Shown: piece by piece, positions 13,561 to 56,689 of the stretch
How positions within the stretch are numbered: position 1 is the first letter of the stretch
Layout of the letters: every line of letters begins with the position of its first letter
NCBI GenBank assembly: GCA_963082975.1
Contig: OY720345.1
Location: 27,288,611 to 27,352,610, forward strand
Source of the DNA: Labia minor
Taxonomy: Eukaryota; Arthropoda; Insecta; Dermaptera; Spongiphoridae
Reading direction: 5' to 3'
DNA length: 64,000 bases
The notes under the pieces: generated by a model
Told to the model about the DNA's origin: nothing
Database searches by the model: none
What the model saw: the letters and a program-made list of their open reading frames with translations, nothing else
Made by a program: the position numbers and the translations under genes

Positions 13561-13675
13561 TTTTTTTTTTATTTGTTTCAGGTGAGTGAAGACCGTTAAT
13601 TTTTATTGCATTTTATCTCTTTCTCCTTCATTCCTGCCCCCTTACTTCGACATTAATAGCCACCATCGAGTAAGT
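13561..13675 (+). other. Candidate recursive splice site 1 with downstream donor
   Basis: A T-run acceptor (13561-13581, ending TTTGTTTCAG) directly abuts the 5' donor GTGAGT (13582-13587), leaving a zero-length exon. This is the layout of Drosophila ratchet points (polypyrimidine-NCAG then GTRAGT) that split long introns. A second strong donor GTAAGT at 13670-13675 would close an 88-nt pyrimidine-rich 'recursive exon' (13582-13669). Two further plus-strand sites with the same layout occur at 43.87 and 56.64 kb. Splicing itself is inferred. Confidence 0.45.
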
Positions 13676-14582
13676 AAGTTCGTTCATTCAACTCGTCTTC
13701 ATTTTTAGCTCTTTATTCTCAGATATTTATAGATTCTCATTTACATCTTTTTATTCATAATCTAAGAAAAATATCATCTTCATTAACTTGACGTATATTC
13801 GACTACAATTTCTCTTTTACTTTGAAAAAATAGCATGAAGGGTAATAATAAAATATTTAAATTAAATATTTAATTTTTATTAAAAAAAAAAATAATAATA
13901 ATTCGAATTATTAATTTTTAAAAATATATAATTTGATTGAGATTTACATATTATATTCAAAACGATAATGTAGAAAAAAAAAATAATTAAATAATGGAAT
14001 ATATTTTTAGTTAATTGAAATTATTTTTATTTAAAGTTGAATGATAGATAATTTTAATTTGTTATTACTTTTCGTGCACTTAATTGGCGACCTGCCCTCA
14101 AAGCAAACACATTCGTCCTCATGTAGTCTTTAAATAGTATTCAGTAATGATACTGAATTCATTATCAAATCGTAGTTATTTAATTATGGGTATGTTATTG
14201 GTTTTTAATACGTTTAGAAAATTTCAAATGAATTCGATATTCGAAACTGAGTATATTATAAACATATGACATAACTCAAGAGTAGTGAAGCAATCAATAT
14301 ATGATCATCCACTCATCAGGTGCATTTAAGTTTAAATTATTAAAAATATAATCATTATATAAGCGTTATAAAGACAAAGCATATGATAATTATAATAATA
14401 ATAAATTTTCTATTAACAATAAATAAAAAAATTATCATTGATATATTATAATGTGAAAAACCATTATATATATACAATATATGTATATAGATACGTATAT
14501 ATTACAAATTTGTTATATCACAATTTGATTCAATTATTTATGATGCTTTTTAAACTGTCTTGGAAAATTGAATGATAATTCC
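13676..14582. other. AT-rich non-coding interval
   Basis: No gene or recognised repeat. (TA)-rich near 14465-14500. Confidence 0.6.
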
Positions 14583-15093
14583 TACAAGGGCATGTCAATA
14601 AGTACGTGATTTTTTGAATGAAACACGGGTTTTTGGATAAAAAATTACTTTATTTTTCAACGTAGTCTTCTTTGGGCTCTATACACTTCGTCCAAAGTTT
14701 TTCCAATATTTTTATCCCTTCCAAAAAATAAGATTTTCGGGGATATCAAAATAGGAATTTGTTTGTGAGATGATTTCATCGTTGGAGGCTTTTCCGCTGA
14801 GCCATTTCTTCAGGTGTGGAAACAAGAAATAGTCATTCAGGGCTAAATCCGCAGACTAGGACGAATGACGGAACAAATCGCATCCCAATTCATGAATTTT
14901 CATGGAAATTCAATTTTTTAATTTTCTTCTCTAGTCTGCTATTAATGGATGTCAAACAAAAAGTAAAAGACCCAGCTGGTTCAAATTTCGACAGGAGTCG
15001 GCTGATAGTTGCCTGCTGACAGCAGAAGTGTTCTCATTTCATTTAAGAGACGGAAAATTAAAAAAATCACGAACTTATTGACTTGCCCTCATA
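14583..15093 (-). mobile_element. Mariner deletion derivative, copy M1
   Basis: The element is 14585-15091 between TA dinucleotides. The TIRs match over about 30 bp: left CAAGGGCATGTCAATAAG, right (reverse complement) TGAGGGCAAGTCAATAAG. The minus strand retains the C-terminus of a mariner transposase (segments LNDYFLFPHLKKWLSGK and GIKILEKLWTKCIEPKEDYV, then a stop). The catalytic DD34D region and most of the N-terminus are missing. Two more copies with the same residual parts are at 36036-36538 and 43237-43718, so the deleted form itself spread. Confidence 0.82.
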
Positions 15094-16104
15094 TTATTAT
15101 TATTATTATATTTAATATAATATAATATCCTTATTGAGACCCCTAATTGGATCTATCATATAAACTATATTTTCGTTACAATCAAAAATAATTGTAATAT
15201 TAATTTCTAATTTAAATATTGGTTTAGAAAAATTTATTATAAATAATGATTTGAAAAAATACTATTTCTATGTTTATTATTTTTAGTACTGTACCGCCTG
15301 GTGATGCAATATACATATATATTAGTTGTTGATAAATAATGTTTAACGGTTATTATTTAAAACCAGGATATCGTGTAGAATACTCGTTGAAAGGGATTAT
15401 ACCATCACCATTTTGAACTAACCAGTTCATTATATTATCCCTTATTTATACTGAATCCAACTAAATATTACATCTCTCTCTCTCTCTCTTTATATATATA
15501 TTAAAATTATTTCTATAGCCAAATACGTTTAACATTAAATGTTTAAAGGGTCCATTAATAAATTATTCTCATTTGTGGTTATGGAACATTAATATGATTT
15601 TATTTTAATGTTTCTATTTCTATAATTTGTCTTGGATATTATTTATTTAAATAAAATGTTTTAATAATGTAATTGATGACTTTTCTTGAATGGGTCACCG
15701 TGATCAATACTTTTTTCATATTTTATATAAGAAACTTTTCTTTTGAACATTAAAAAAAAATTATTATCCAGTTGATAAATCTTGAGATTTTAAAAAAATT
15801 GTGATAACGATTATCTACATATTTTATTTTTTAAAATATATATATGGATCTTTTAAAATGATAAAAATTTATAACATTCATTCTAGACACTCTGATTAAT
15901 CTAACCAAGAGGTGTTGGTTTTTTTTTGAAATTCATTTTTACTATTTAAAAAATTAAATGAAAAAATAATTAAAAAAATAAATGAAAAAATTTCAGATAT
16001 TTTAAAAAGGAACAGAAATTAAAAAAATATTTATTTATGCTTTTCTAATTGTAATTAATATTATTAGGTCATATTTATTTTGATTAAGATATTCTATAAT
16101 TTTT
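15094..16104. other. AT-rich non-coding interval
   Basis: Holds a (CT)n at 15475-15489 followed by (TA)n, and complex sequence at 15290-15450 with no match elsewhere in the window. No gene. Confidence 0.5.
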
Positions 16105-16470
16105 GGTGAAAGATTAATAAATATATTCCGTAATTTAATTCTAAAATATTATTAAAATCAATATTTTTAATTTTATTTCGAAATTAAATAAAAATTTTAA
16201 AAATATTTTAAATATAAAAAAAAACATTAATACATTTTCAATTAAAAAAGAATGGCAAGAGGAAAATATGGATGACATATTTAAATTAAAATAATTTAAA
16301 TTAAAAAAAAAACTTATGAAGCTGATTTTTCCCGAGGCTGAAACCAATACATATCAATTTGTCTTTATAAATATTATCTGTGGTGTAAATTTGAAAAAAA
16401 AAAATTAATTAATTTCAAAATATACAAATACATATATATACAATTTTTCTAGTATAATAAGATAAGATTT
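16105..16470 (-). mobile_element. HP-family element, partial
   Basis: Contains the HP blocks TTTTTCCCGAGGCTGAAACC and the terminal TAGTATAATAAGATAAGA at its plus-strand right end. The hairpin end is missing. The strand is set so that the hairpin end of complete copies (54862-55492) is 3'. Open frames here are simple A/T translations. Confidence 0.6.
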
Positions 16471-16563
16471 AAATATAAAAATAAAGGACTATTGTATATA
16501 TATATATATAGATTTTTCCTGATATGGACTACTGTATATAAATTTATGAATTATTATTTTTTT

Positions 16564-17116
16564 CAAAATTAAATTTTATTATTAAATAAATAAATATTAA
16601 ATATTATTGTATCCTATATTTATTATACCAGGGTAGAACCAACCACCTACCTATCTGGATGATAAATTATGGTATTTTTTTTTAGTTAAAAGTAACAAAA
16701 TTAAATCCGTCTCGAACGTCTTGAAGGTTTACCAGCTCTGGCCTTGCACTGACCACTTTTTACACTGATTGATAGAAAATAACTAAATAAATAAATTTTA
16801 TATCATTATATTTCATCTTCTTTTTTTATTGAAAACAATTTAATTCAATTTTTTATTTTACTTTTTATTGTATATTAAGTATCGTCTGTTCAGTAAATTA
16901 TTCGGGATACAAATTGTATTTTTTTTTACAAAATAAATATAATTCCATATAATATGATTTTTTGTTATCAATTAATTTTAGAAATTATATTGCTATAAAA
17001 TTTTAATTTATTTATTTGAATTTTTTACATCATTTAGTAGGTCCTACCCTGATATAATAAATATAGGATACAATAATATTTAATATTTATTTATTTAATA
17101 ATAGAATTTAATTTTG
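16564..17116. repeat. Inverted repeat with 77-bp arms (possible MITE)
   Basis: Arms 16564-16640 and 17040-17116 are reverse complements with three mismatches, separated by 399 bp. The shared core includes TATTATACCAGGGTAGAACC on the left and its inverse on the right. The interior is unrelated to other repeats here. No TSD could be fixed because the flanks are low-complexity. Confidence 0.65.
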
Positions 17117-17400
17117 CAAAAACATTTGATTAAAATATTTTTTTTTTTACTAAATTAAGATATTAATTCATAAATGGTTGTGTTTACTTTAATTATTTAT
17201 TAAATTAATAAAAATTATAAACTTAATAATACGTAGTTATTTTTAAAATACTAATTGTCTTGTCTGTTAGAGTTAAGTCAGTTAAGTCAGTCTTATGTAT
17301 TCAATGAAGTGGATTATGAATTTAATTTATTTGAAAATTTATTAATTTCTCTTTAGTGATTTTTATTCATATTTTTAAATTCTAAATCCTTCTTCATTTA
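17117..17400. other. AT-rich spacer
   Basis: Contains a small direct repeat AGTTAAGTC/CAGTTAAGTC near 17273-17290. Otherwise nothing. Confidence 0.4.
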
Positions 17401-17864
17401 TACCAACCGACGATAGGAAGGGAAGGTATTTCACATGTGGAGATTTTTACATCACGAATCATGCATTTTGTTAACAGAAAAAAGTATTTTTAGCATGATG
17501 TCTGTCCGTCTGTCCATTGTGTGTCTGTTTAAACGTGTTTTACTCAAACGACTCAACGGATTTTGATAAAATTTGGTATATTTACTTAATGCATCAGTAG
17601 CATAAATTGGTTTATATCCGTATACCGGAAGTGGTACTTTACAAAGTATTAATTTTATATTCATTATCGGAAATTTTTCACTTAAAATATAGTAATAATT
17701 AATAATTGAGTAATTAAACTGAAAGTAAAAAGCAAGATAATGTATTTTAGTCATTTTAATTCAAGTTTTAAAAATATTTTTTTTTTATACTTTATATATA
17801 TGTATATAATATTGTTTGGAAATTTCGAATAGTCGGTCGGTTCTGTGCCTGGCCACAGATCATT
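17401..17864 (+). mobile_element. Hel-B element (mini-me/DINE-1-like), short subfamily
   Basis: Hel-B has a 5' motif ACCGACCGACG, its inverse CGTCGGTCGGT near the 3' end and then a hairpin. This copy starts ACCAACCGACGATAGG, has the inverse AGTCGGTCGGT at about 17830 and the hairpin CTGTG-CCTGGC-CACAG. It carries a GTCTGTCCGTCTGTCC tract at about 17500-17515, then AACGGATTTTGATAAAATTT and CCGGAAGTGGTA. (GTCY)n plus (TA)n tracts inside such an element are the known hallmark of dipteran mini-me/DINE-1 elements. Confidence 0.7.
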
Positions 17865-18240
17865 TTTTAATTAATTATTTAAAATATCTCCACCCGGAAT
17901 AATTACTTAACACTTTAAAATATTGCTTTATCAATGAATGTGCAATTTACAACATTCCAAATTTTTAAGTATCATTTAATTGTATCAGATAAGATAAGTT
18001 AAGATTTCTAATATCGACTTGATATCTTCCATTTCAGATGATATATTTTCGTTGTTTATTTCATTCGCTTCCTCTTTCCCTCTCTATCTAAAAGTCTGTG
18101 TGTCTATCTTTTTTATATTTTACTTTTTTTTTTTTTTTTTTTTTTTTTGCAAAAGAAATTTATTTTCTTTTCTTTTCAAAAAAAATGTAAAGTTCTAAGT
18201 CTCGTTTTCTTTTGTCTGTTACCTAAATTTCCCCCCCCCC
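17865..18240. other. AT-rich interval ending in T and C runs
   Basis: A T run of about 25 at 18124-18148 and a C run of about 13 at 18230-18242 followed by (CT)n. No gene. Confidence 0.6.
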
Positions 18241-18289
18241 CCTCTCTCTCTCTCTCCTTTGAATTGTGAGATATTCTTTCTATGTTTGT

Positions 18290-18840
18290 TTTGTCTCCTT
18301 CCACGCATTCTCTCCTCCACCTCTACTATCACCCCTTCACTCTTTTCTATGGATATTATTGCTATGCAGAGCTAAGCCGGCCGATTATTGATTATGATGG
18401 GACAAAAGTTCTATATCGCACTACGTTTCTCTCTCTCGAACGTTTGTACATGTATATATATATATGTGAGTGTATATATATGTATAGCGTGTGCGCCCCG
18501 CTTACGACTGGTTCGCCCGGCCGCCACCCCCGGCCCCTTACCCCAAAAGGGGTTGTATTTCGACAGAGAGGGTGAACCGCCGCCAGGGCTAATTCAACGC
18601 GAATCAATAAAGGCCATTGTTTGTGTATGTCAGCACCAATCCCCCTTCCTCCCTCAGGGATGCATAGTGACGTCACCACCCACTGCAGCCTGAAGCCACA
18701 AGAAGAAACCGCACTGTTTTCATTAACGAGTGGACAAACGATTATTCGTGATTTTTCGAGGAGAACACACCTGGTTTAAGAAATTGTATTCAGCCATCTC
18801 TCTCCCGGTTCCTGTATTCTAAGAAGGGGAAATTATACGC
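18290..18840. promoter_or_regulatory. GC-richer CpG-bearing block 2 with consensus CRE
   Basis: Far richer in G+C and CpG than its surroundings (CCGGCCGATT, GGTTCGCCCGGCCGCC, GTGAACCGCCGCCAGG). It holds a perfect CREB/ATF palindrome TGACGTCA at 18668-18675. Several overlapping open frames of 95-101 codons occur on both strands but none shows a domain. A promoter, enhancer or 5' non-coding exon of a host gene is plausible; direction unknown. Confidence 0.4.
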
Positions 18841-18963
18841 TTGCTTAATCCATTTGCTTTGAATATTTCACATAAAGAAGATACCTTGTTTAACTTAAGA
18901 TAATTTCTTTTAATATCAAATGAAAAATGAGAGATAAAAATATATAGATAAAATGTTAAAAAA

Positions 18964-19000
<37 letters not shown>

Positions 19001-19234
19001 CTGGTACTTTAAAAAAAATTATTCCTTATCAACTATGAATATTTAAGATTATGGTTATTATTTAAAATAAATAAACGATAAAATATATGAAACAATTCCA
19101 TATAATTTAAAAGAACAAAAATTTAAAAAAAAAATAGTCATAAAACATACAGCCCTTAAACGTTCGTAGTAATGCACTGAAAGGCAGAAAAGTATGCCCT
19201 GTGGATATAACATAATATATATTTGATTTTGATT
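18841..19234. other. AT-rich interval with (TA)n
   Basis: (TA)n at about 18969-18997. No gene recognised. Confidence 0.6.
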
Positions 19235-20372
19235 ACAAAATATTATTAAAATAAATATTTTTAATTTTATTTTATTTATAATATTTTGTATTTAAGGAAG
19301 CGCTATCCGGCGTTGCCCGGTGTGATTTTGTTAATTATTAAAATGCCTATTTTAAATTAAGAAAAAACTAACCAAGAGGATTTTTCCCGAGGCCGAAACC
19401 AATACAGAATGATTTTTCTTTATAATAAGTTGACCTGTGGCCAGGTCCGAACCGACCGACGGTATGAAATAAATTAATTTCCAGCTAAAGAAACAATTTC
19501 AAATAATTTTAATATATCTATTAATGTAATAAAAAACAGATAAGCATACATAAATAATAAATATAAACATTTTTAATTTTATTTTATTTATAATATATAT
19601 GCAAGACCAGGCTGTGACGTCATGAATGGCTGGATGACGTCATATAATTTTAAATCAAGAAAAAACTAATAAATATGATTTTCCCGAGGATAAAACCAAT
19701 ACAAAGTGCATGATTCGTGGTGATATATAAAAAAATCTCCTTATGTGAAATTTTGTGTGAAAATAACCCTTCCCTTATTATCGTCGATCGCTAATACTAC
19801 CACTTCCGGTTTCCGGATTTGCACCAAAAGTTGATCAATTCATCCCACTGATGCATTAAATAAATATACCAAATTTCATCAAAATCCGTTCAGCCGTTCA
19901 GGCTGTACACATCTATACGGACAGACGGACGGACGGACGGACAGACGGGCGGACAGACAACATGCTAAAAATACTTTTTTCTGTTAAGAAAATGCATGAT
20001 TCGTGGAGATATGTAAAAATCTCCACATGTGAAATTTGGTGTGAAAACAATACCTCCCTTACTATCGTCGGTCGGTAAAAATTATCTATGGTGAGAATTT
20101 CAAAAAAAATAAGAGAGCGGTTTAATTTATCCAAAATATATATATATTATATATTTAAGTATTTCCTCTTAAACTCATATAAAAGTTTAAAATATTTATC
20201 CTGGTGATTAAAGGTAAGATAAGCTTTATAATAACCAAAAGATTTTTTTTGTGAGACGTATAGTTTCAGTTTTTTATAAAAGAAAATAGTGGCAAGAGCG
20301 CTTAAAATGTCATCTATTGGTGCCAATACCTTATATACAATTTTTCCTGGTATAATAAGATAAGATATATAA
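19235..20372 (-). mobile_element. HP-family element interrupted by Hel-B
   Basis: HP sequence runs to about 19426 (ending CAATACAGAATGATTTTTCT), is broken by the Hel-B copy at 19427-20077, and resumes at 20078 with ATTATCTATGGTGAGAATTT, ending in GGTATAATAAGATAAGATAT at 20352-20371. The two halves join in the order seen in uninterrupted HP copies (16105-16470, 46078-46460). HP was therefore there first. Confidence 0.65.
19427..20077 (-). mobile_element. Hel-B, full length, left arm of large inverted pair
   Basis: On the minus strand it begins ACCGACCGACGATAGTAAGG and ends with the inverse motif followed by the perfect hairpin GACCTG-TGGC-CAGGTC (19432-19447). It carries a long GTCY tract (19919-19960) with roughly eleven units. 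Two TGACGTCA palindromes lie at 19615-19622 and 19635-19642. Its own 5' block is repeated inside it (ATCGACGATAATAAGGG on the minus strand near 19785), so the element is a composite. About 95% similar by eye to the inverted copy at 20831-21461. Confidence 0.75.
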
Positions 20373-20830
20373 ATTTAATTGTTTATATGTGGAGAATGGG
20401 AATTAGTATTTTATAACTGTTGGAGGTCAATATTTGGAACATTATTATTTAACATTTATAAATGTTTTATTAAATATAGCTGAGTTCTTAAGAAATAGTA
20501 AACCAGTTCTTGATATAAAATAATGGTGAGATTGTAACCATAAATGGCCATTGCCTGCCCTAGAAGAAGCTGTCATGAAGTTAAATGAACGAGAGGAAAA
20601 TTAATAATAAACTTAGATGAAAGTTAATAAACTCTTTTTTTTAACAAATATTAATATAAATATCGATTTTCGGCTTGCTTTTATTCAACAAGTGGATTTT
20701 ATGATTTTCATTTTTAATTAATTAAATATATAAATTAATTTCTCAATGAATATCTATATAATTGAAAACCATCTCTAATTGAATAATAATATTAATAATA
20801 ATAATAGAGTCGGATATCATCTTTAGTTTT
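20373..20830. other. AT-rich spacer of the inverted Hel-B pair
   Basis: AT-rich with (AAT) runs near 20785-20806. No feature recognised. Confidence 0.5.
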
Positions 20831-21461
20831 TACCGACCGACGATAGTAAGGGAGGTATTGTTTTCACACCAAATTTCACATGTGGAGATTTTTACATATC
20901 TCCACGAATCATGCATTTTCTTAACAGAAAAAAGTATTTTTAGCATGATGTCTGTCCGTCCGTCCGTATAGATGTGTACAGCCTGAACGGCTTAACGGAT
21001 TTTGATGAAATTTGGTATATTTACTTAATGCATCAGTGGGATGAATTGATCAACTTTTGGTGCAAATCCGGAAACCGGAAGTGGTAGTATTAGCGATCGA
21101 CGATAAGAAGGGAAGGGTTATTTTCGCACCAAATTTCACATAAGGAGATTTTTTTACATATCACCACGAATGTATTGATTTTATCCTCGGGAAAAATCAT
21201 CTTCATTATGTTTTTCTTAATTTAAAATTATATGACGTCACCCAGCCCTTCATGACGTCACAGCCTCGGGTAACGCCGGCAACGCCGGCTACTTCAGCTA
21301 TATATTATAAATAAAATAGAATTAAAAATATTTATGTTATATCCATTTCTGTTTTTTATTACATTAATAGATATATTAAAATTATTTGAAATTGTTTCTG
21401 TAGCTGGAAATTAATTTATTTCAAACCGTCGGTCGGTTCGGACCTGGCCACAGGTCAACTT
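20831..21461 (+). mobile_element. Hel-B, full length, right arm of large inverted pair
   Basis: 5' motif ACCGACCGACG at 20832-20842; exact inverse CGTCGGTCGGT at 21427-21437; hairpin GACCTG-GCCA-CAGGTC at 21441-21456. This is the clearest example of the Helentron-like architecture here. The GTCY tract is short (GTCTGTCCGTCCGTCCG). Two TGACGTCA sites lie at 21233-21240 and 21253-21260. A second, internal copy of the 5' block (GATCGACGATAAGAAGGG) starts near 21094. No open frame, so it depends on a partner element for movement. Confidence 0.78.
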
Positions 21462-21639
21462 ATTTGTTTATTTATTTATTCATTTATCTCATCGCATGAC
21501 TAATTTATATAATTTTGCATGAGTGGAAGGGCTTTCCTTTTTCCAACATATTTAAATCTTTCGTCGTTTTTATTTATAGAAATTGATCGAATTATGAATT
21601 TTATTCGGATGCAATTAAAAACTAAAATTATAGGTAGGT

Positions 21640-26348: not shown

Positions 26349-26822
26349 CATTAGAACAGTGGTTCTTAAACTGTGGTCCGCGGACCCCTGGGGGTCCGCG
26401 AAGCCTTTACTGGGGGTCCGCGGTCCTCGGAAAAAAATCATCGTAAAAATATATACATATATAAATATTTAAAGTTCATTGTTTAACTATATCCTCCTAG
26501 AGAATTACGGCTATAATTTAATACTATTAATAATACTATTTTATTTTATTAAATTGATAATTATGTCAATTAATTTTTTGTGAATAAATAAACATATATA
26601 AAAAACTATATATAAAATTTGAATTTTCATCCATTCATTCATTTAAAATCATTTTTCGATTGTTCCTTTAAAATAATCCCTCTTAGGGGCTCGGAAGGGG
26701 AGGCATATAAGGGAATTTTCTTTCACTTTGTTATTGGGGAAAACCAGGGGAGGGGACAGTCTTACCCGGAAAAACCCAAATTGTCAGCGTCCACTCTGGG
26801 GTTTTAAACAGTTTTAAAGCAA

Positions 26823-26935
26823 ATGTTAATTATAAGTTCATTTCTCAACGAGTTGTATCTTTAAATTATTTTTATTAATGTTAATTATAAGTTCATTTCT
26901 CAACGAGTTGTATCTTTAAATTATTTTTATTAATT
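26823..26935. repeat. 54-bp tandem duplication in the hAT leader
   Basis: The block containing TAATTATAAGTTCATTTCTC and AACGAGTTGTATCTTTAAAT occurs twice back to back, the second copy starting near 26878. It lies between the left TIR and the transposase start. Confidence 0.85.
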
Positions 26936-27116
26936 TAATTAATTATAATTAAATTATAGCTAATAATAGTTTATTATAGCTAATAATTTTTTTTAATTTT
27001 TAGTGTAATTTGCATGATCATTATTTTATAAAAACACTAAACACATTTTGCAATTTCCCAGAAAGGCTGTTTTTGAGAGTAAGTATAAGTTAGTTTTATG
27101 AATAAAAAATATTTAT

Positions 27117-27402
27117 TTTAATAATATTTTAGAATCAAATTACGAAATTAATAATATTTTAGAATCAAATTACGAAATTAATAATATTTTAGAATCAAAT
27201 TACGAAATATATTTATTATATAAATTAATATTCATTTAAAATGATATTAAATCATTTATTTAAAATGATTTAAAACATTTATTAAAATGATTTAAAACAT
27301 TCATTTAAAATGATATTAAAACATTCATTTAAAATCATATTAAAACATAGCTAGTAAATAATAATTCGTTATATTTATATTATATTTATATTATATTTAT
27401 AT
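27117..27402. repeat. Tandem repeats just upstream of the transposase
   Basis: Three 30-bp units each containing ATATTTTAGAATCAAATTAC (27117-27209) are followed by four or five imperfect CATTCATTTAAAATGATATT units (about 27228-27346) and a short TTATATTTATA repeat (27366-27402). Such arrays in a hAT leader could bind transposase or act as promoter spacing; only the repeats themselves are seen. Confidence 0.85.
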
Positions 27403-27437
27403 TATTGAAGTTCAATGTTAATAAATTACTCCATAAA

Positions 27438-29297
27438 ATGGATCGTTGGCTACAAACTGGTTCAACACAGAAACGGAAAGAATCAGATGATGAGGCATCA
27501 ACAGCAAACTCTACCAAGAAACGCAAAACTAGAAAATATTCGGATGATTATTTATCATTTGGATTTACTTATATTTGCAACAATGATGTGGAAAGACCAG
27601 TCTGCGTTTTATGTCAGGAAAGTTTATCCAATGAAAGTATGAAACCTGCTAATCTCAGACGTCATTTACAAACAAAGCACAGCGAGCATGTTAGTAAGTC
27701 TATCGAATTTTTTAAAATGAAAAAAGAAGAACTTAATTCAAGTCAGAAATTGATGGTAAAGACGGGATCTGGTGGTATGAGTAAGAAAGCAGTAATGGCA
27801 TCATATGAAGTAGCTCTACTTATTGCTAAAGCAGGAAAGCCGCATAATATAGCAGAGCAATTAATTCTTCCTGCTACAAAAGTAATTACAAATATAATGT
27901 TAGGAACTAAAGCAGCAAACGATATAAATTTGATTTCATTATCAAATGATACGGTTAAGAATAGGATTGAAGACATGTCATGTAATATAAAAGAAGAATT
28001 AATATCGAGAGTGCGCAAAAGTCACTATTACTCATTACAATTGGATGAAAGTACTGATGTCACTAATAATGCCAATTTGTTAGCTTTCATTAGATATGAG
28101 TTTGAAAATCAAATACAAGAAGATGTATTGTTTTGTGATTCACTACCTTCACGAACGACAGCTAATGACATATTTAACAGTTTGAATAATTTTATAACCG
28201 AAAATGAAATAGAGTGGCCAAAATGTGTTGGAATTTGCACTGATGGTGCTCGTGCAATGTCAGGTACAAGAACTGGATTGATTGCTCTTATTAAAAATGT
28301 TGCGCCTCAGGTTGTTTGGAATCATTGCTGCATTCACAGAGAATCATTAGCAGCCAAAAATATGTCACCAGATTTGAAAAGAACATTAGACGAAGTAGTT
28401 AAAATTGTCAATTTCATTAAGGCTCGTCCACTTAATTCCAGAGTTTTTAAAATTTTGTGTGAGGAAATGGGTAGTCAACATACACATTTATTATTACATA
28501 CAGATGTACGTTGGTTGTCCCGCGGGAAAGTACTCATTCGCCTTTTTGAGCTTCGAGATGAAATACGATTGTTTTTAATAGATGCGCATTTTGAACTGAC
28601 CGAATGTTTCAATGATTTTATCTGGTTAGCTAAGGTGGCTTACTTGACTGATATTTTTACAAAATTGAACGAACTTAATTTGAGCCTGCAAGGTACTGTT
28701 GTAAATATATTTAAAGTTGAAGATAAAATAGAAGCAATGATTAAAAAAATCGACTTGTGGTCGAAACGCATCCAGAACGGTGTATATGAGTCTTTTCCAA
28801 CTCTCAATGATTTCATAGAAAGCTCCAGTGAAAAATTGCTTAATCAAACGCGTCAATTATTTGTTGAACATTTAATTACTTTGAAAAGCAACTTCAGGAA
28901 GTATTTTTCTACTCCTGATCCTTGCAATAACTGGATCAGAGATCCATTTAATATGGAAATTACAAATGCTAAACATTTATCTGCACCTGAACAAGATATT
29001 CTCGTGGAATTATCATGTGATACAACTTATAAACTAAAATTTAACAAAACTGAATTGAGCAACTTTTGGTTACTTCTCAGGTCAGATTATCCTGCGCTTG
29101 CAAATAAAGCACTTCAACACTTGATTCCATTCTGCACAACATATTTATGCGAACAAGCTTTTTCGGTACTATTTTATATTAAGTCTAAATATAGAAACAA
29201 ATTAAATGTAGAGCCGGATCTTAGATTAAAAGTTTCCAATATTAAGCCAGATATTGAGATTCTTGTTTCAAGAAAACAACTGCATACATCTCATTAA
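27438..29297 (+). CDS. hAT transposase, BED-finger (ZBED5/Buster-like)
   Basis: A 619-residue open frame with no introns or stops. The ATG at 27438 (MDRWLQTGS) is preferred over the upstream in-frame TTG at 27405 because related proteins begin MD.WL.TG. Residues 27-33 (KKRKTRK) form a basic, nuclear-localisation-like patch. C56-x2-C59...H76-x4-H81 is a BED-type zinc finger for DNA binding. The RNase H-like core shows the hAT triad: D203 in LQLDEST, D269 in CTDGARAMSG and E572 in CEQAFS; CCIHRESLA (297-305) and HTDVRWLSRG (354-363) are further family motifs. The insertion domain sits between D269 and E572. Closest known relatives are the domesticated vertebrate ZBED5/SCAND3-type proteins, but here it lies within its own TIRs and is a transposon gene. 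All key residues are present, so the enzyme looks functional. Confidence 0.93.
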   Translation: MDRWLQTGSTQKRKESDDEASTANSTKKRKTRKYSDDYLSFGFTYICNNDVERPVCVLCQESLSNESMKPANLRRHLQTKHSEHVSKSIEFFKMKKEELNSSQKLMVKTGSGGMSKKAVMASYEVALLIAKAGKPHNIAEQLILPATKVITNIMLGTKAANDINLISLSNDTVKNRIEDMSCNIKEELISRVRKSHYYSLQLDESTDVTNNANLLAFIRYEFENQIQEDVLFCDSLPSRTTANDIFNSLNNFITENEIEWPKCVGICTDGARAMSGTRTGLIALIKNVAPQVVWNHCCIHRESLAAKNMSPDLKRTLDEVVKIVNFIKARPLNSRVFKILCEEMGSQHTHLLLHTDVRWLSRGKVLIRLFELRDEIRLFLIDAHFELTECFNDFIWLAKVAYLTDIFTKLNELNLSLQGTVVNIFKVEDKIEAMIKKIDLWSKRIQNGVYESFPTLNDFIESSSEKLLNQTRQLFVEHLITLKSNFRKYFSTPDPCNNWIRDPFNMEITNAKHLSAPEQDILVELSCDTTYKLKFNKTELSNFWLLLRSDYPALANKALQHLIPFCTTYLCEQAFSVLFYIKSKYRNKLNVEPDLRLKVSNIKPDIEILVSRKQLHTSH

Positions 29298-29332
29298 ATA
29301 TGTAAGTTATATTTAATGAGATAGATGCAGTT
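29278..29332 (+). other. 24-bp-stem hairpin over the transposase stop codon
   Basis: Arms 29278-29301 and 29309-29332 are inverted copies with one mismatch (left includes TGCATACATCTCATTAAATA; loop GTAAGTT). The stem contains the last codons and the TAA stop. In RNA it would be a long stable stem at the 3' end of the coding region; its role is unknown. Confidence 0.8.
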
Positions 29333-29691
29333 ATTTTTTAAAATATTTCTTATTTAATATTTTCTGAAAAAAATTATAAAATATTTATATGAATTTAATG
29401 TAAGTACCCATTATAATTTGTGAGATTTGTTGCTATGACAATGTTTGTATTTTCTTTCTTCAATATTATAATTTCTAATAAAATGTGTTCTACAATATGC
29501 AAAAAAATCGTTATTCACCAATCACTGTTAGAAATATTCATCATATATCCTTGTCCTTATGAGATCGTAAGCCAGAAATTAATTAATAAAATGACGTAAA
29601 GTACCTAAAGTTGTGATGGGGGTCCGTCAAAAAAAATTTTTTCAAGTGGGGGTCCGTGGAGTACATAAGTTTAAGAACCTATGCATTAGAA

Positions 29692-32089: not shown

Positions 32090-32673
32090 TACAGGGGTTG
32101 GACAAAAATATGGAAACACCTTTAAAAAAACATGTTTCTTTGCTTAAGCACGACCAGCAATTTCCTGTTTATGAAGCTCCCTTCTAATTGTTTTGGTACT
32201 CACAGGGTTCGGTAACACAACATTCATTACAGCAGTAACTTTTGCAGCTGTGATCTTCTTATTTTTCGTCACAATTGCCCTTAATGATGTCACGATCACT
32301 CAGGACACACTTTCGTCCGCGCTGTGATTTAGCAGATGATGTTTTTCCGCTTTTCAAATATGCGGAATAAATCTTCGATACAGTACCTCTTGTAACACTA
32401 AACACCTCGGCTACCTTGCTTACGGAAGCACCTACCATACGTGCTCCAACAATTTGCCCACGTTCGAAGTCTGTTAACTCTTACATAATGCAATGACAAC
32501 CTCACATAACAGTACTCCGACAACAACTGAACTGTTTAGCACACTTACGAAGTTGTATAGGTGGCGTCAGTAGTCAAAAACGCCAGCGGCACCTACATAT
32601 TTCATTAAAATCATTCTTTCTTTTCAAACATGCATTTCACAAGTTGTTTCCATATTTTTGTCCAACCCCTGTA
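32090..32673 (-). mobile_element. Tc1-like deletion derivative with perfect 27-bp TIRs
   Basis: The element is 32092-32671 (580 bp), flanked by TA on both sides. The ends are identical for 27 bp, starting CAGGGGTTGGACAAAAATAT. From 32486 down to 32144 the minus strand encodes the paired helix-turn-helix N-terminus of a Tc1 transposase: ELTDFERGQIVGARMVGASV, SKVAEVFSVTRGTVSKIYSA, then after a one-base shift KITAAKVTAVMNVVLPNPVS and TKTIRRELHK. Codon 2 is a stop. The whole catalytic DDE domain is deleted. The perfect TIRs suggest recent movement by a transposase supplied elsewhere. Confidence 0.88.
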
Positions 32674-32851: not shown

Positions 32852-33934
32852 AAAATCAAAACTTTCACGGAAACTTAAACAAATATATATATATATATAG
32901 AAAGATTAGATATCTTATCTTTTAATATTAAATAATTATCCAATTTGTTATTTCATTTGTTAATAGATTTCTAAATTATAAAAATTTATATGATCTGTTC
33001 TTTATTCTTAAATTCATTCATGGGGTACTCCCATCATCTAGTTCATTTATTATTCAAAATTAATCTAAGTCTTCTAATATACATATATCGTATCTTGAAT
33101 AGCTTGAAAGTGCAATAGAAGGCAATGTCACGGAACGTTCGTGTACGTGCCGGGGGTCGATTGTCGTAAGTTGGTTATGCCGAAGTCGGTGCTCAGTTCT
33201 TTGACACGCTTATTTGGAGTACGAGGAACGATTATTAGTGAGAACCGTTATTCATTTCCATCTATAGAAATTCAAATTAGTCCTTTTGATAGACGAGCAA
33301 TAGAATATTTCTTTTAAATAAACAGAAATTATTTATATATATATATATATATATTGATTTATGGAATATTTAATATATTTCTTTTTATAATAAATAAATA
33401 TATAGGTCAATATAAGCAAAAAGGGTGGAGAGGAGAGATGTGTTTATAAGATAGTCTTTATTATATATAACTATTAATTAATGAGTGAAAATTTATGGTT
33501 GATAACAGAGTTGAGTGTTAATTCGAATATCCTTTATCAAAGGTAGCCAACTTTCCAAACTAACCACGAGTCTTTTCAAACAGATAGTGGTCAAAAGTAT
33601 AAACCAAACCAGTCCCCTTTCATTTAATTTAATAATTAATATATAACTATTATAAAACAATTATTAAAATATATTATTATATTATAATACTGTCTTTTTT
33701 TATCAATTATCTCAAATAATATTTCAAAAATTTCCTAACAAAAATGAGTTATGCTCAAGCACACATTTAAATTAATTTCCAAACCACATTATATATATAT
33801 ATATATATACATTATTATTACTATCAGATTATATCCCTGATAAATCTGATAGTAATAATAACAATAACATTCTCGGAAACCTAAACCAACATATATATAC
33901 ATTATATATATATATAAAGTAAGTATATAACTAA
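32852..33934. other. AT-rich interval with a GC-richer patch and a hairpin
   Basis: The patch at 33118-33250 (ACGGAACGTTCGTGTACGTG) is CpG-bearing and unique in the window. (TA)n tracts lie at 33334-33355 and 33790-33809. A 20-bp-stem, 12-nt-loop hairpin lies at 33811-33862 (arms ATTATTACTATCAGATT and inverse; one mismatch). No gene. Confidence 0.5.
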
Positions 33935-34267
33935 GTTATATTACTTTGGTTTTTATTTTTAGTTTAATTACTCAATTATTAATTACTACTATATTTTAAG
34001 TAGAAAATTTCCGACAATGAATATAAAATTAATATTTTGGAAACTACCACTTCCGATTTCCGGATATACGCCAAAAGAATTCATGCTACTGATGCAATAT
34101 GTAAATTTACAAAATTTTATCAAAATCCGTTCAAGCAGTACACGTCTATACGGACACACAATGGACAGACGGACGGACGGACAGACAGTCAGACGTCATG
34201 CTAAAAATACTTTTCTGTTAACAAAATGCATAATTCGTGGAGATATGTAAAAATCGTGGGTCGGTAA
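33935..34267 (-). mobile_element. Hel-B element, 5' half
   Basis: Minus strand starts ACCGACCCACG, carries a GTCY tract (plus-strand GACAGACGGACGGACGGACA near 34163) and runs through ACGGATTTTGATAAAATTTT and CCGGAAATCGGAAGTGGTAG. It then follows the short subfamily of 17401-17864. The hairpin end is missing. Confidence 0.65.
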
Positions 34268-36033: not shown

Positions 36034-36540
36034 TACGAAAGCAGGTCAATAAGTCTGTGTCTTTTCGAATGAAACTCAGGTTTTTGGCTAAAAATTTATT
36101 TTATTTTTCAACGTAGTCTCCTCTGAGTACTAAAGACTTCGTCCAAAGTTTCTCCAATTTTTTATCCCTTCCGAAAAATAAGATTTATCGAGGACATCAA
36201 AATAGGTATTTATTTGCGAGATAATTTCTCTCTCTCTCATCGTTGGAGTCAAATCCCTTTACTCCAAACCATTTCTTCAGGTTTGGAAACGAGAAATAGT
36301 CACTCAGGACTAATTCCGGTGAATAAGGTGGATGAGAGCGCAATTCCCAATTCATGAATTTTCATAGAAATTCACTTCACGAGGTTGTCTGCTATTAATG
36401 GATGTCAAACAAAAACTAAAAGACCCAGCTGGTTCAAATTTCAACAGAAGTAAGTTGATAGTCGCCTGCTGACAAGAGCAGTGATCCATTTCATTTAAGA
36501 GACGGGAAATTCAAAAAGTCACGGACTTGTTTATATGCTA
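36034..36540 (-). mobile_element. Mariner deletion derivative, copy M2
   Basis: The element is about 36036-36538 after a TA. It is collinear with M1 (14585-15091), including CGTCCAAAGTTTCTCCAA (inverse of the transposase C-terminus), GAAATAGTCACTCAGGACTA and GGATGTCAAACAAAAACTAA. The right TIR has decayed. Confidence 0.75.
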
Positions 36541-43236: not shown

Positions 43237-43718
43237 GGATTAAAAATGGATTAAAAATTATTTTATTTTTCAACGAAGTCTTTTGAGCTCTATTTACACT
43301 TCGTCCAACGTTTCTCCAATTTTTTTTATCCTTTCCAAAATATAAGATTTGTCGAGGACATCAAAATAGGAATTTATTTGCTAAATGATTTCATCGTTGG
43401 AGTCAAATCTCTTTCCGCTCGCCAAACCATTTCCTCCTGTTTGGAAACGAGAAATAGTCACTCGGGACTAAATCCGGTGAATAGGGTGGATGAGAGAGCA
43501 ATTAGTATCCCAATTCATGGATTTACATGGAAATTCATTTCATTTTCCTCTTAAATCACGAGGTAGTCTTCTATTAATGGATATCAAACAAAAACTAAAA
43601 GACCCAGCTGGTTCAAATTTCGAAAGATGTCAGGCGATAGTTGCTTGCTGACAGGAACAGTGTTGCCATTTCATTTAAGAGAAATTCAAAAAGTTACTGA
43701 CTTATTGATCTGCCCTTG
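43237..43718 (-). mobile_element. Mariner deletion derivative, copy M3
   Basis: Collinear with M1 and M2: ATTTTTCAACGAAGTCTTTT, CTTCGTCCAACGTTTCTCCA, GAAATAGTCACTCGGGACTA and GACCCAGCTGGTTCAAATTT. The right TIR ends ATTGATCTGCCCTTG followed by TA (43719-43720). The left TIR is lost. Confidence 0.75.
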
Positions 43719-43844
43719 TATTTTATATATGCATTTATTTGCTATTAATGAATTATATTTATTAATTAAGATTTTTTTGAAATAATATTTCACTTATTAA
43801 TTCTTAAAAAAGATTATTTACAAACAATAAAAAAAAATTAAATT

Positions 43845-43940
43845 AATGTTTTGTTTACTTTTCTTTTTTGCAGGTAAGAAAGTACAAATATTCTTCAATT
43901 TTCTTGTCTTCTTCTTCGTTTATTCTTCTTCAAAGTGAGT
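43845..43940 (+). other. Candidate recursive splice site 2 with downstream donor
   Basis: Acceptor TTTACTTTTCTTTTTTGCAG (ends 43873) directly abuts donor GTAAGA (43874-43879). This is the best match here to the ratchet-point form. A consensus donor GTGAGT follows at 43935-43940, giving a 61-nt pyrimidine-rich 'recursive exon' (43874-43934). No upstream AG intervenes in the 25-nt tract. Function inferred from sequence form only. Confidence 0.5.
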
Positions 43941-50518: not shown

Positions 50519-50551
50519 AAGAACGAATATTGAATTTCATTTCATCCTAAT
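50519..50551. repeat. 33-bp exact repeat of 49819-49851
   Basis: The segment starting AAGAACGAATATTGAATTTC occurs twice exactly 700 bp apart and both copies are followed by a C run. The second copy borders the Hel-B element that begins about 22 bp later. Confidence 0.85.
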
Positions 50552-50610
50552 CCCCCCTCCCCCCATTTGATATTACAGCTTGAACGGTTCAACGGCTTTT
50601 AATAAATTTT

Positions 50611-51170
50611 GGTATATTTACTTAATGCATCAGTAGCAAGAATTCATTAACTTTTGGTTTATATCCGTAAACCGGAAGTGGTAGTTTCCAAAGTATTAAT
50701 TTTATATTCATTGTCGGAAAATTCTCGCTGAAAATATAGTAGTAATAAATAATTGAGTAATAAAACTCAAAATAAAATCCAACATAATATAATTTAGTCA
50801 TTTTAATTCAAGTTTTAAAATTTTTTTTTTATTTTTATTCTTTATATATATATACTCGTATATATGTATATATACACGGTGTGGACAATAAGTATATTTA
50901 CTTAATGCATCAGTAGCAAGAATTCATTAACTTTTGGTTTATATCCGTAAACCGGAAGTGGTAGTTTCCAAAGTATTAATTTTATATTCATTGTCGGAAA
51001 ATTCTCGCTGAAAATATAGTAGTAATAAATAATTGAGTAATAAAACTCAAAATAAAATCCAACATAATATAATTTAGTCATTTTAATTCAAGTTTTAAAA
51101 TTATTTTTTTATTTTTATTCTTTATATATATATACTCGTATATATGTATATATACACGGTGTGGACAATA
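50611..51170. repeat. 280-bp near-perfect tandem duplication
   Basis: Units 50611-50890 and 50891-51170 differ by about one base in the T-run (near 50823 versus 51103) plus junction bases. Each unit ends in the first 16 bases of the mariner left TIR (CACGGTGTGGACAATA), but only the second continues into the mariner. The duplication therefore followed mariner insertion and is very recent, or is an assembly artefact. Confidence 0.9.
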
Positions 51171-51770
51171 ACCAAGGTGACTGAGACCATAAAAACAAAA
51201 CGGGTTACAAATTTATAAATTTTATTTCAGATTATTCAAAATACATCCCTTCCTCATTGATACATCTTACAAATCTTTTGTAAAATGAATTGAAGCATAA
51301 ATAGAAGTTATTCTTTTGGAGCCCCTTTAGGGCCGCGGTTACGTAATTCTGGATTTCTTCCACCGATGAAAAATGCTCTCTCTTCATGGCCATTTTTAGT
51401 TTAATGAATAGCCAAAAGTCAGATGGGGCGCTTGTCTTCATTGAAAATGTTCTTACGACTCATGGGGGGGGGGCTTCCTCTCCGTGTGCTTTTTGAATCA
51501 TTTCAAATGTTTATGTGGCTGTATTTCCAAGCTTGAAAGGGAATTTGATGTTGGCGCGAAGGATTCATGGTTTCTTTGTGACAAGGTAGAAAAAGTTGAT
51601 CTGAAAAAAATTGGATTTCTGAAATAGTATCAACACTAGAAAACTGAATTTTTTTTTGATTATCGAGTGTTCGTATACCTATTTAATTATGTTTTGATAA
51701 ATATCTTAGGTGTAGCTCCGTGAAAAGGAGTTACAACACCAGTCACCTTGATTATTGTTCACACCCTGTA
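51153..51770 (-). mobile_element. Mariner deletion derivative M5, nested in Hel-B
   Basis: The element is 51155-51768 between TA dinucleotides. The TIRs match at 24 of 27 bases (left CACGGTGTGGACAATAACCA; right inverse CAGGGTGTGAACAATAATCA). On the minus strand the N-terminal helix-turn-helix piece (KLGNTAT, stop, TFEMIQKAHGEEA) at about 51550-51465 is followed by the C-terminus (APSDFWLFIKLKMAMKREHF...YKRFVRCINEEGMYFE, stop at 51232). The catalytic centre between them is deleted. A different mariner lineage from M1-M3, judging by TIR and C-terminus. Confidence 0.85.
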
Positions 51771-51839
51771 TAATGTTGCTTGGAAATTAATTTATTTCAA
51801 ATCGTTGGTCAGTTCTTTGCCTTGCCACAGCTCATTTTT

Positions 51840-52590
51840 ATTCAAATTTTCAGATTAACAAAAAATTTTTTATTCATTTTTTGTTTATTTATATTTTTAT
51901 CATAAATTTAAAAAAAAAAATTATAAAATTGAAATATCACCATTTTATATTTTACATTTATGTTAATCTTAAGATAATACGTGCAATAATTCATTTTTCT
52001 ATTAACAAAAGTTTTCATTCATATTAAAAAAAATTTTATTTTATGAATGAATCTTTGAAAAATGATAAGAAAACTTGATTATATTTTTATTAAATAGAAT
52101 ATATCATATATCATTTTGTACTAGAAATTCTGTAAGATAATGATTTTGAAATCATACATATAAATATAAATTCGTTGAAATTTACATCAAAATATATGAC
52201 ATATACATCGTTATTATTCTATTTGAATAAATAATCACTTCTTTAGTGATCATGATTATTTCTCTCTCCTTCACTTCTTTTGTAACATTAAAATTATTGA
52301 AATTTATTTTAATTTATAAATATATTAATACTATTACTATTTAAATTAAAAATGAAAATTTCGAAAAAAATATTTCCATCATTAAAACTATTGTCTTCTT
52401 TGTTACAATTATAATATGCTCATATAAACGGTTTAATGAGTATCAATATAATTATTTGTTTACCCCTTATGAATTTTTTTTTCATGTACTCTCTTTTATG
52501 GTAATAAATTCAAAGATTAAAACAAAAAAAAAACAATTGAATGATAAAAATGAAATATAAAAAGATTTGATCCATATGACATGCTGATCT
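51840..52590. other. AT-rich interval
   Basis: Nothing recognised. Confidence 0.5.
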
Positions 52591-52830
52591 TCTCTAAGAG
52601 GAAATTTAATTGAAAGGCGGTCCAATCTCTTTGATCTTTGACTGGGCGCTTGTTTGTCCTATTTCTAATATTATTAATAATAATAATAATAATACATAAA
52701 CTCGCCCTCATCCTCTTTAAAATAATTAGCACCGGCAACAGCCACATCCACCCCATCCTATTCCCTACTCTGTATGCTTGTTGATGCGTCAATAATGAGC
52801 TGACTTGTCAAAATTGACCTCTCCTCGAGC
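52591..52830. promoter_or_regulatory. More complex non-repeat patch with overlapping TCF-like sites
   Basis: TCTCTTTGATCTTTGACTGG at 52626-52645 holds two overlapping TCF/LEF-type CTTTGA motifs. Further on, GAGCTGACTTGTCAAAATTG and TGATGCGTCAATAATGAG occur. Not similar to any repeat in the window. Enhancer function is a guess. Confidence 0.25.
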
Positions 52831-53375
52831 AGATTCAAATCAATATAATAATAATAATAATTCGAGCATGAACAGTAACAATAATAATAATAATAATATT
52901 TCAGTCAAATTGAAATCATGTACAAAATTAGTGAAGGGTTTTACAATGTAGACGATTAAAGAGTGAGGGGTGAATATGGGATGAGATTTTGATGATTATG
53001 AATGAAGTGGAATTATTAAGTACTTAAAAAAAAGTATGCAAATAGAAAAAAGTTCCAACTCCAACATTATCTCCCTCTCTTTCTCTGTCGTTTGTTAATA
53101 TTGATCATTAGTTCAACTTAAACCACTTGTATCATCTTAATTACAATGTTTAAATCATTAATTAATAATTAATAATATTTTTTTATTTAATTTAAATCAT
53201 ATAATCCCCTAAGGGAATAAATATATACTAATCTACATTTGTCGAACGAACCAGACGTGTTTTAGTGTTAAGTAGTAGGGCCAAGAATTTTTCAAATTTT
53301 CAGAACACACTAACGTAAGTTAAAGATTACTTCATTCAACTCCAAATCTTAACATTGACTCGAATATTCTTAAGT
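52831..53375. other. AT-rich interval
   Basis: (AAT)n at about 52842-52860 and 52880-52898. No gene. Confidence 0.5.
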
Positions 53376-53664
53376 AACTAAAATTTTGGAGTCAGCTTAG
53401 ACGAGAGTGTAGCGTAGCAATTTTCTACACAAGAAGTCGGCGTTCGATTCCACCTAAGAACAAATAAATTCAATTTAACATCAGCTGCCTCCGGCTCCAG
53501 GAACTTTCAGTTCCTGGTTCTATACATGCGAAGGCAACGTAAACCACCGCATTAACAATCCCAAGAAATATCATCATGGCTGAACAGCTTCTAAGGCTAT
53601 CCTTGTCATGATGATAGCCAAACTCCGAAAGGGAGACTGCACCTTAAAAGAACTAAAATTTTGG
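53376..53664 (+). mobile_element. SINE-B, full length with 14-bp target duplication
   Basis: The SINE is 53390-53650, flanked exactly by AACTAAAATTTTGG (53376-53389 and 53651-53664). The head has an A-box-like GTAGCGTAGCA (53409-53419) and a B-box GTTCGATTC (53442-53450). The central GGCAACGTAAACCACCGCAT and the end GATAGCCAAACTCCGAAAGG match the copy at 7547-7821. The intact duplication implies a fairly recent insertion. Confidence 0.9.
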
Positions 53665-54861
53665 CATATTATATGTTGAAATTATTTGTTTTATTTCTAG
53701 AATCTAAATTCTTACTCTTTTGTTGTAGCATTTTTGTTAAAATAAATATTTTTATTTTTTTTATAATAAAAATTAAGAAATAACTATTTTATATTTTCAT
53801 CCTCTTAATTTCAAAATCTTTTTCCCTCTCTGTGCCTTTGAATTTTGTATAACAATTTGCTTTACATTTTATTTTTTTAATCAAAATCAACCTTAATTTT
53901 ATTTTTATCTTTTTCATTTTTTTTTAATTTAAAGAGAAAATAAATACTATCCTTTATATTGAATATATGATATTTTGTTTGTTAATAATCATTTTAAAGA
54001 AATTTTATTTCATAATTTGACTTACTAAAATCTAAAGAACTATAAGATTTGAGTTGGAATTTTTGTAAAATTTAAAAAAAAACTAAAATTAAAATTTTCT
54101 AATCTTAATTTAAATTTACACCTTAAATATTATATTGACTGAAGTTTCAAATTGATTTATTCGCTTGTTTTATGAACAATTAAGTTTAACTAATATTTAC
54201 ATATTATAGAGGGTTGCTTCCTTTAGAAGTTGCCAAGTAATGAAACTCTGGCCTATGGATTCACCTATTATATTATTGAGATTCCAATTTTGAGCCTATA
54301 TTCTTTCATTGCTCTGAATACACAATGAATAATTCAAAAGTTATATTCGAATTCTTCAGGTTATGAAACATAAAGATCTGTTAAAATTTTTAAATACTAA
54401 TCATTGTATAGTCAAAACCCTTATTTATGTATACGGGAATATAGGAGATAGATTGTAAATATATCTGAAGTGATATTCACATCAAACATCGAGTTAGGGG
54501 CTATCATTGACCTCATTCTTTTCCATTCATGATTTTATAACATGCGTGTAAAATATACAAAAAAAATATGTACAATCAATGGAAGGTACACAGTATTATA
54601 TATTTGAATAAAATAAAAAGTTTTTCTAATAATTTATAATTCTGAAAATAAAATATGCCGCTATTAGTTTATATAACAATATTTATTAATATAATATTTA
54701 TATATACAATAGAATATCAAAGTAAATTTAATTATTAAAAATCTTTACAATTATATTATCAATTAATTTTAGCCTCTAGGATAATTTGCATTAATTTGCA
54801 AGAATTGTCTTTTATACATATATTTAAATATTCGGTTATATTATGTGTATTATATATAGTA
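53665..54861. other. AT-rich interval
   Basis: No gene or repeat recognised; moderately complex near 54195-54330. Confidence 0.5.
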
Positions 54862-55492
54862 CCGGGACCCCGAGCCTCGGCTCGCTACTTAAGTTAAAAA
54901 AAATAATTCATTATTATTGGGTTTGGCTGGTAATATTAATACTTGAGATACCGAGCTGAAATACAATTCTTTAATTATTTATTACAATTATTAAATGTTG
55001 CATCAATGCATCAATCTGAATAAAATGAATGGAACTTGGTGTCCTCAATAATACATAAATATGTATTATTAGGTATGTTACTAAGTGAATGAATATTTTT
55101 TTTTATTGGAAGAATGATAAATATATATCGTAATTTATAATTATAAAATATTATTAAAATATATATTTTTAATTTTATTTCGAAATTAAATTAAAAATTT
55201 TAAAATATTTTAAATATTTTATATAATAAATATTAATACAATAACCTTTAAAAAAAGGCGGGAGTCAAATTTCAATATGGATGTCATTTGTGTCGTGTTC
55301 CATATATAAATTTAAATTAAGAAAAAAACTAATTAAGATGTATTTTTCCTGAGATGTGATTAATAAAAATCAATTTTTCTTTATAAATACTATATCTAGT
55401 GTGAATTTGAAAAAAATCGTTAGAGCGGTTTTTGAGAACCCATAGCTATATATATATACAAACAATTTTAGCTAGCATAATAAGATAAGATA
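54862..55492 (-). mobile_element. HP-family element, most complete copy
   Basis: Hairpin end at left (CGAGCC-TC-GGCTCG, 54871-54884, within GGGACCCCGAGCC). Then come GGTTTGGCTGGTAATATTAA, ATGCATCAATCTGAATAAAA, AAAAGGCGGGAGTCAAATTT, the decayed TTTTTCCTGAGATG block, CGTTAGAGCGGTTTTTGAGA, and the other end AGCATAATAAGATAAGATAC. A GC-rich tail TAGCCGTTCCCGGCATCATA...GCTGCCGGCGTC follows to about 55560. Non-coding; superfamily unassigned, though the hairpin end suggests a Helitron relative. Confidence 0.6.
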
Positions 55493-55496
55493 CTAG

Positions 55497-56595
55497 CCGT
55501 TCCCGGCATCATATGCTGCCGGCGTCATCAAACTCTTAGGGACAGGCGGCTTCTAGCCGCACGAGATTGATTAATAATATTAATTTATAGGAAATTATGT
55601 TTCAAATACTTACAAAACAACACAATGTTTAAATATAAAATTAATAATTTTATTCAAGTCGTCGTAATATTTTTTTTTAAATTTTTTTTTTTCCAATATT
55701 TAATAATAACAAAACAAAATTTAAAAAAATGAAATTAACAATTTCTGTTAGGTTTCTTTTTATGTTTATTATGTTTAATATATATATAAATTCTCTTTTA
55801 TGATAAAATTAGAATATTTCAATTTGTACTTTAAATTTTTTTTTTTTATTTCAAATTCTATTTCATATTTATAATAATTGTAAATTGTAAAATTCTAAAT
55901 TTGTAACTAACTTCATAATGTTACAAACATTTCATACATACCTAAATACATAGGAAAGTATATATATATATATATATATATTAATGTAGTATTTATAATT
56001 AATATTAATTAATTAATATAATCTATATTATTTTTCTTTTATAATAATAGAGTTATTATTATATTGAAAATAATTGTATCAATTTCAACTATTTGAATAA
56101 GTTATGGTAATAAAATTATAATTATATTTGACTAATGAATAATCCTAATAATTAATAATAATCCTTTATCAGTATTTTCTCCAAACCTTGTCATTTAGAA
56201 CAAACATAACCCATAAACATAAATTTTAGTATTTTTTTTTATCGTTGCCACAACAGACAACATTTCTCTTAATCTGAGGCTTAAAAAAATAATTCGTAGG
56301 GCATTATTTTATCTCTACTTTGCCTGGGAAAACAAAAAAAAAAATCTCACTGATATTTAACTCTCCCTCGTTCACCATTCTCTCTCTCTCTCACTTTTAA
56401 GATCTAATGCATATTCATATTCATTTCTTTTTTTTATTTATTTTTTTTTTAAAGAGAAATTTTTCTACTTCTTTTGTATGAAAGTCATCTTCTTGTTGGC
56501 GAATTTTAATTCTCTTCCTTTCTCTTTCATTCGTTGATTTTGAATAATTTTTTTTTTATATTTTTTTATATTATTGCATGTTAATAATCCATCTT
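55497..56595. other. AT-rich interval
   Basis: (TA)n at 55959-55980 and (CT)n at 56378-56392. No gene. Confidence 0.5.
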
Positions 56596-56614
56596 AAAAA
56601 TAATTAATGAGAAT

Positions 56615-56689
56615 TTGTAATTTTTTTATGTTTCAGGTAAGGAAGAATATTTCTCTCTCTTTTCATCTTAAGCCCTTCAGAAAGTGAGT
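56615..56689 (+). other. Candidate recursive splice site 3 with downstream donor
   Basis: Acceptor TTTTTTTATGTTTCAG (ends 56636) directly abuts donor GTAAGG (56637-56642). GTGAGT follows at 56684-56689 and closes a 47-nt pyrimidine-rich segment (56637-56683). The layout matches sites 1 and 2 and lies on the same strand. TTAATGAG upstream could serve as branch point. Confidence 0.47.

Follow-up and report, generated by a model that had tools for sequence, protein, structure and literature searches.

Do three splice-like junctions on the plus strand of a 64,000-nucleotide stretch of Labia minor DNA (contig OY720345.1, positions 27,288,611 to 27,352,610; hereafter the window, with positions counted from its first letter) mark points at which long introns are removed in steps? 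An initial annotation, made from the letters of the stretch, had taken them for recursive splice sites, or ratchet points, where a splice acceptor is followed at once by a donor. Our analysis suggests that this is the best explanation: the junctions are probably three recursive-splicing ratchet points (RP1, RP2, and RP3), each with a cryptic recursive-splicing exon (RS-exon), and lying in at least one long plus-strand intron. The reading passes tests of strand, of Markov-generated sequence, and of second donors, whereas pairing with U1 agrees with it only conditionally, depending on how the upstream exon ends.

All three sites have the juxtaposed acceptor/donor form (Y)nNCAG|GTRAG, and the coordinates and motifs first given for them (13581/13582, 43873/43874, and 56636/56637, plus strand) are exact. 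At RP1, an acceptor consisting of a pyrimidine tract and CAG (13563..13581; 14 of the 16 nucleotides ahead of CAG are pyrimidines) abuts the donor GTGAGT (13582..13587), so that the junction reads TTTTTTTTATTTGTTTCAG|GTGAGT. RP2 joins a tract ending in GCAG (43855..43873; 14/16 pyrimidines) to the donor GTAAGA (43874..43879), reading TTACTTTTCTTTTTTGCAG|GTAAGA. RP3 has the weakest of the three acceptors (tract plus CAG, 56618..56636; 12/16 pyrimidines), followed by GTAAGG (56637..56642) in TAATTTTTTTATGTTTCAG|GTAAGG. RP1 and RP2 lie 30.3 kb apart, and RP2 and RP3 12.8 kb apart.

The second donors reported 88, 61, and 47 nt farther on were borne out as well: GTAAGT at 13670..13675 (with an additional GTAAGT at 13674-13679), GTGAGT at 43935..43940, and GTGAGT at 56684..56689. 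Together with the first donors they delimit putative cryptic RS-exons 1 (13582..13669, 88 nt), 2 (43874..43934, 61 nt), and 3 (56637..56683, 47 nt), all on the plus strand. The C/T-rich stretch described between the paired donors is the body of each RS-exon, which is purine-rich at its start: GTGAGTGAAGA (13582-13592), GTAAGAAAGTA (43874-43884), and GTAAGGAAGAA (56637-56647). GAAGA, which we take to resemble a splicing-enhancer motif, is present in two of these three starts.

Could such sites arise by chance? AT- and T-rich DNA, such as this window (74% A+T), occasionally yields a tract followed by CAGGTRAG, and the sites may simply be the best three picked from it; we regard this as unlikely. 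CAG|GTRAG occurs three times on the plus strand of the 64-kb window, always preceded by a tract, and once on the minus strand (34789), where pyrimidines make up 8 of the preceding 16 nucleotides, which is no tract. Counting only sites with at least 12 pyrimidines in the 16 nt before CAG|GTRAG, there are three on the plus strand and none on the minus strand, in agreement with the statement that the minus strand holds none; the comparison assumes that plus is the transcribed strand. A Markov control of 400 generated sequences, both strands of which gave 800 strands (300 of order 1, 300 of order 3, and 200 of order 5), included no strand with three such sites, and the means per strand were 0.017, 0.007, and 0.040 for the three orders.

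The second donors set the sites apart from other potential junctions in the window. All three have GTRAGT at +30 to +120. Among the remaining AGGT sites of both strands, 7 of 241 have one there (Fisher P 5e-5), and among the remaining tract-YAG sites 2 of 149 (Fisher P 2e-5). We set the range of 30-120 nt with the three distances already in view; it brackets the published RS-exon length of ~50 nt.

Three further candidates for ratchet sites were rejected. On the plus strand, 14813 (CAG|GTGTGG) lies within a repeat copy (14590-15135) and is not followed by a second donor. On the minus strand, 55942 (TAG|GTATG; 12/16 pyrimidines) has a weaker donor and is without a second donor, while 34789 has the second-best U1 match overall, but no tract.

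Several results weigh against the ratchet-point reading, and the first of them favor chance. For the bare 8-mer YAGGTRAG there is no enrichment: the two strands together hold four matches where 2.35 are expected, and four are reached in 21 of 100 shuffles. By itself the 8-mer is within chance, unlike its combination with the tract (0/800 Markov strands with three). In a softer test, with hand-written weight matrices scored on 243 AGGT sites, the three sites rank 1-3 with a best score of 12.2; however, RP3 scores 7.1, barely above the tract-less minus-strand 34789 (6.7), and the best single score on a generated strand (14.1, 11.2, and 16.1 at orders 1, 2, and 4) can exceed the 12.2 observed. 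Sites scoring at least as high as RP3 occur at means of 0.13, 0.20, and 0.44 per generated strand at the same orders, and at least three of them are carried by 0, 1, and 1 of 300 strands (2/900 in total), with a Poisson P for three sites by these matrices of 0.0003-0.01. The second donors are also unremarkable by U1 energy, since 1.5-5% of GT sites are equally good, and a looser criterion (any GT with a U1 energy of -5.7 kcal/mol or lower, the value of the weakest second donor) is matched downstream of 38 of the 241 controls. The second-donor contrast thus depends on counting the GTRAGT consensus. Altogether, RP1 and RP2 are strong sites, and RP3 leans on its second donor.

Matches to the branchpoint-like motif yTnAy, among several per site, place an A at -28 at RP1 (TTGAT), -28 at RP2 (TTAAT), and -30 at RP3 (TTAAT). 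Such motifs are frequent here, which counts on the same side: even the narrow form yTrAy occurs ~0.22 times per 13-nt slot. We therefore set branchpoint spacing aside as evidence for the sites, as its chance occurrence is too high.

Which of the two donors at each site would be used? We measured donor strength as the pairing energy with the 5' end of U1 across 4919 GT sites on both strands. In genomic context, the first donors of RP1, RP3, and RP2 rank first, third, and tied fifth of 4919, with the minus-strand 34789 at rank 2. With the genomic CAG, the first donor is stronger than the second at all three sites: -13.0 versus -7.2 kcal/mol at RP1, -11.0 versus -5.7 at RP2, and -11.5 versus -7.3 at RP3. 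These first-donor energies include the genomic CAG, which after ligation is replaced by the upstream exon's own end. The advantage of the first donor is kept at each site for all 16 upstream-exon ends in G. Because exons usually end in G, the order of first donor over second is likely to hold, and the first donor would likely outcompete the second wherever the upstream exon ends in this way. This order matters because, in Drosophila, donor competition decides whether an RS-exon is excluded, and the cryptic exon is included in mutants in which the RS-exon donor is stronger than that of the ratchet point (PMC8605326).

The same energies also add to the case against ratchet points. The first donor wins for only 22, 16, and 16 of the 64 possible upstream-exon ends (RP1, RP2, and RP3, respectively), and given the same CAG, the second donors pair better (-13.7, -12.2, and -13.8 versus -13.0, -11.0, and -11.5 kcal/mol). 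With an upstream end other than G, then, the second donor mostly pairs better with U1, as would suit a rival explanation in which these are cassette exons (ordinary or poison), or expressed RS-exons, that normally use the downstream donor and are kept in the mRNA. Every interval does have an acceptor and a downstream donor, two frames are open in RS-exon 2 and one in RS-exon 3, and there is precedent in expressed RS-exons, namely the Ubx microexons (PMC8605326). However, none of the lengths (88, 61, and 47 nt) is divisible by three, and every frame of RS-exon 1 contains a stop. Being out of frame or stop-bearing, the intervals are poor candidates for coding cassettes and fit cryptic RS-exons. 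Nor would ordinary exons be expected to carry a strong donor at exon position 1 every time, as these three do, and we consider exons retained in the mRNA quite improbable.

If the sites are ratchet points with cryptic RS-exons, we infer that they would work by the published Drosophila scheme (PMC8605326). Each short exon (88, 61, or 47 nt) would first be recognized by exon definition, through its acceptor and downstream donor. As the polymerase moves along, the upstream exon would be spliced onto one CAG| after another, and ligation would recreate a strong donor (GTGAGT, GTAAGA, or GTAAGG) at the junction. The recreated first donor would then beat the downstream donor, so that the cryptic exon would be removed with the next segment and the mRNA would retain no trace of it.

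Do the sites share one intron? The motifs suggest plus-strand transcription with an intron around each site, and T exceeds A on the plus strand in all four segments (0.028-0.042), which may fit plus-strand introns. A single intron of more than 43 kb, as had been proposed, does not follow: small or non-coding exons may lie between the sites, and no host gene was found. The spacing offers another point against ratchet points, as the 30.3 kb from RP1 to RP2 exceed the 9-15 kb typical of fly segments (PMC6110457); a 3.3-kb hAT insertion adds to this length.

The search for a host coding exon covered 106 stop-to-stop open reading frames (ORFs) of at least 65 amino acids, of which 40 were scanned against Pfam, with E limits of 0.001, 1, or 0.1 depending on the batch. 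No host gene domain scored above cut-off in the 40 scanned ORFs, a search that short exons would escape. We discounted weak matches that stayed below cut-off (Spore_YabQ, DUF2615, HTH_TANC1, and others), and no Rfam family reached its gathering score in the window. The proposal that an intron interior explains the missing host exon fits these results, but intergenic DNA fits them too, and the case for transcription comes from the splice motifs only.

Were the splice-like sequences instead imported by a transposon or repeat family? Repeats are certainly abundant in the window: a self-BLAST gives 87 self-similar pairs, and there are pieces of hAT, Tc1-like, and mariner-like elements. No ratchet site is covered by any of the 87 pairs, however, and the repeat nearest RP2 ends at 43763, 110 nt upstream. 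Self-BLAST of the window would miss single-copy families, but on its result we rejected a transposon origin of the sites, which we hold to be very unlikely.

One of these elements is a hAT transposon between RP1 and RP2 (26357-29683, plus strand), probably a recent insertion in the putative intron. It looks complete: the target-site duplication of 8 bp (CATTAGAA) is perfect, the terminal inverted repeats of 16 bp, which begin CAGTGGTTCTTAAACT, are imperfect (14/16), and an open frame runs for 648 uninterrupted codons (27351-29297). The C-terminal region of this ORF matches the hAT dimerisation family just under cut-off (19.4 versus 21.4 bits). Searches with the hAT protein returned no relative in viral contigs, 18 stretches in genome contigs that matched the pattern, none of which was confirmed, and no match in PDB at E 0.1. 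Two decayed transposase fragments lie on the minus strand: a Tc1-like one at 32259-32480 (HTH_23, E 2e-6), which is the only Pfam match above cut-off in the scanned ORFs, and a mariner-like one at 51232-51459, which matches Mos1 (E 0.003). Together with the base composition, these two fragments point to animal, and likely arthropod, DNA.

The remaining repeats include an inverted repeat (19424-20084 and 20824-21464) with arms of ~640-660 bp, 86% identity, and a spacer of ~740 bp, whose transcript, if there is one, could form a long hairpin. Further pieces of its family lie at 17396-17804, 33927-34255, and 50574-51134. The last of these overlaps a tandem pair of 280-bp units (50612-51171) that are 99.6% identical and may be a recent duplication or an assembly effect. 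An unnamed repeat of ~500 bp has three copies in the same orientation on the plus strand (14590-15135, 36041-36538, and 43247-43763), 78-80% identical; one ORF scanned per copy gave no Pfam match.

How do these sites compare with known systems? Intronic ratchet points with cryptic RS-exons were reportedly described in Drosophila by Joseph et al. in 2018, as cited by Joseph et al. in 2021. According to the 2021 paper, Drosophila intronic recursive splicing requires a cryptic RS-exon (~50 nt, variable) with a downstream donor, and the RS-exons are short and generally out of frame (PMC8605326). The downstream donor, which the initial annotation took for a vertebrate feature, is thus the rule in Drosophila, and the combined layout of acceptor, donor, and second donor is not new for an arthropod (PMC8605326). 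Drosophila ratchet points resemble the sites described here in the juxtaposed acceptor|donor with its tract and in the short, out-of-frame exon with a second donor, and several may occur in one very long intron, as here. They differ from these sites, which are predicted from sequence, in several ways: the present genome is very AT-rich, the RP2 and RP3 donors do not have T at +6 as in GTAAGT, and the segments include one of 30 kb. In flies, most introns of more than 40 kb contain recursive sites (63% with a high-confidence site; PMC6110457).

Ratchet-point sites were predicted in large introns of several other animals in a 2009 study attributed to Shepard et al. They share the motif seen here, (y)nncag|gtaagt, which in introns of more than 50 kb is enriched relative to the complementary strand by ratios of 4.0 in bee, 8.0 in beetle, >>10 in mosquito, and 8.2 in sea urchin (PMC2773006). 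That study scored motifs, and the passages considered here do not cover second donors or RS-exons. Also in bee, a 3-nt exon is stated not to be a recursive substrate (PMC8553928). For arthropods other than Drosophila, the open-license literature, surveyed mostly by title listing and otherwise in part, yielded no RS-exon-level or experimental account of recursive splicing. A search with a 20-base RP3 pattern gave no matches in viral contigs.

In vertebrates, recursive splicing with RS-exons is said to have been reported by Sibley et al. in 2015. The vertebrate system is alike in that the exon is defined by its downstream donor, which then competes with the recreated donor, but only nine fully suppressed long-intron sites have been noted in mammals, versus more than 6,400 potentially expressed RS-exons (PMC8605326), whereas the three sites of this window look fully cryptic.

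What would the sites mean if they are ratchet points? The mechanism adds nothing beyond that known in flies. A broader reading, which we see as evenly balanced between true and false, is that an arthropod lineage other than Drosophila also uses full recursive splicing through RS-exon definition and donor competition, and that a single intron of more than 43 kb here contains three cryptic RS-exons in succession and has stayed functional although the hAT element and many repeats have inserted between the ratchet points. If this is true, and the species is not dipteran, the origin of the mechanism would go back at least to early holometabolous insects. The three well-formed sites give exact coordinates for direct testing in another genome, and would aid the annotation of long insect introns.

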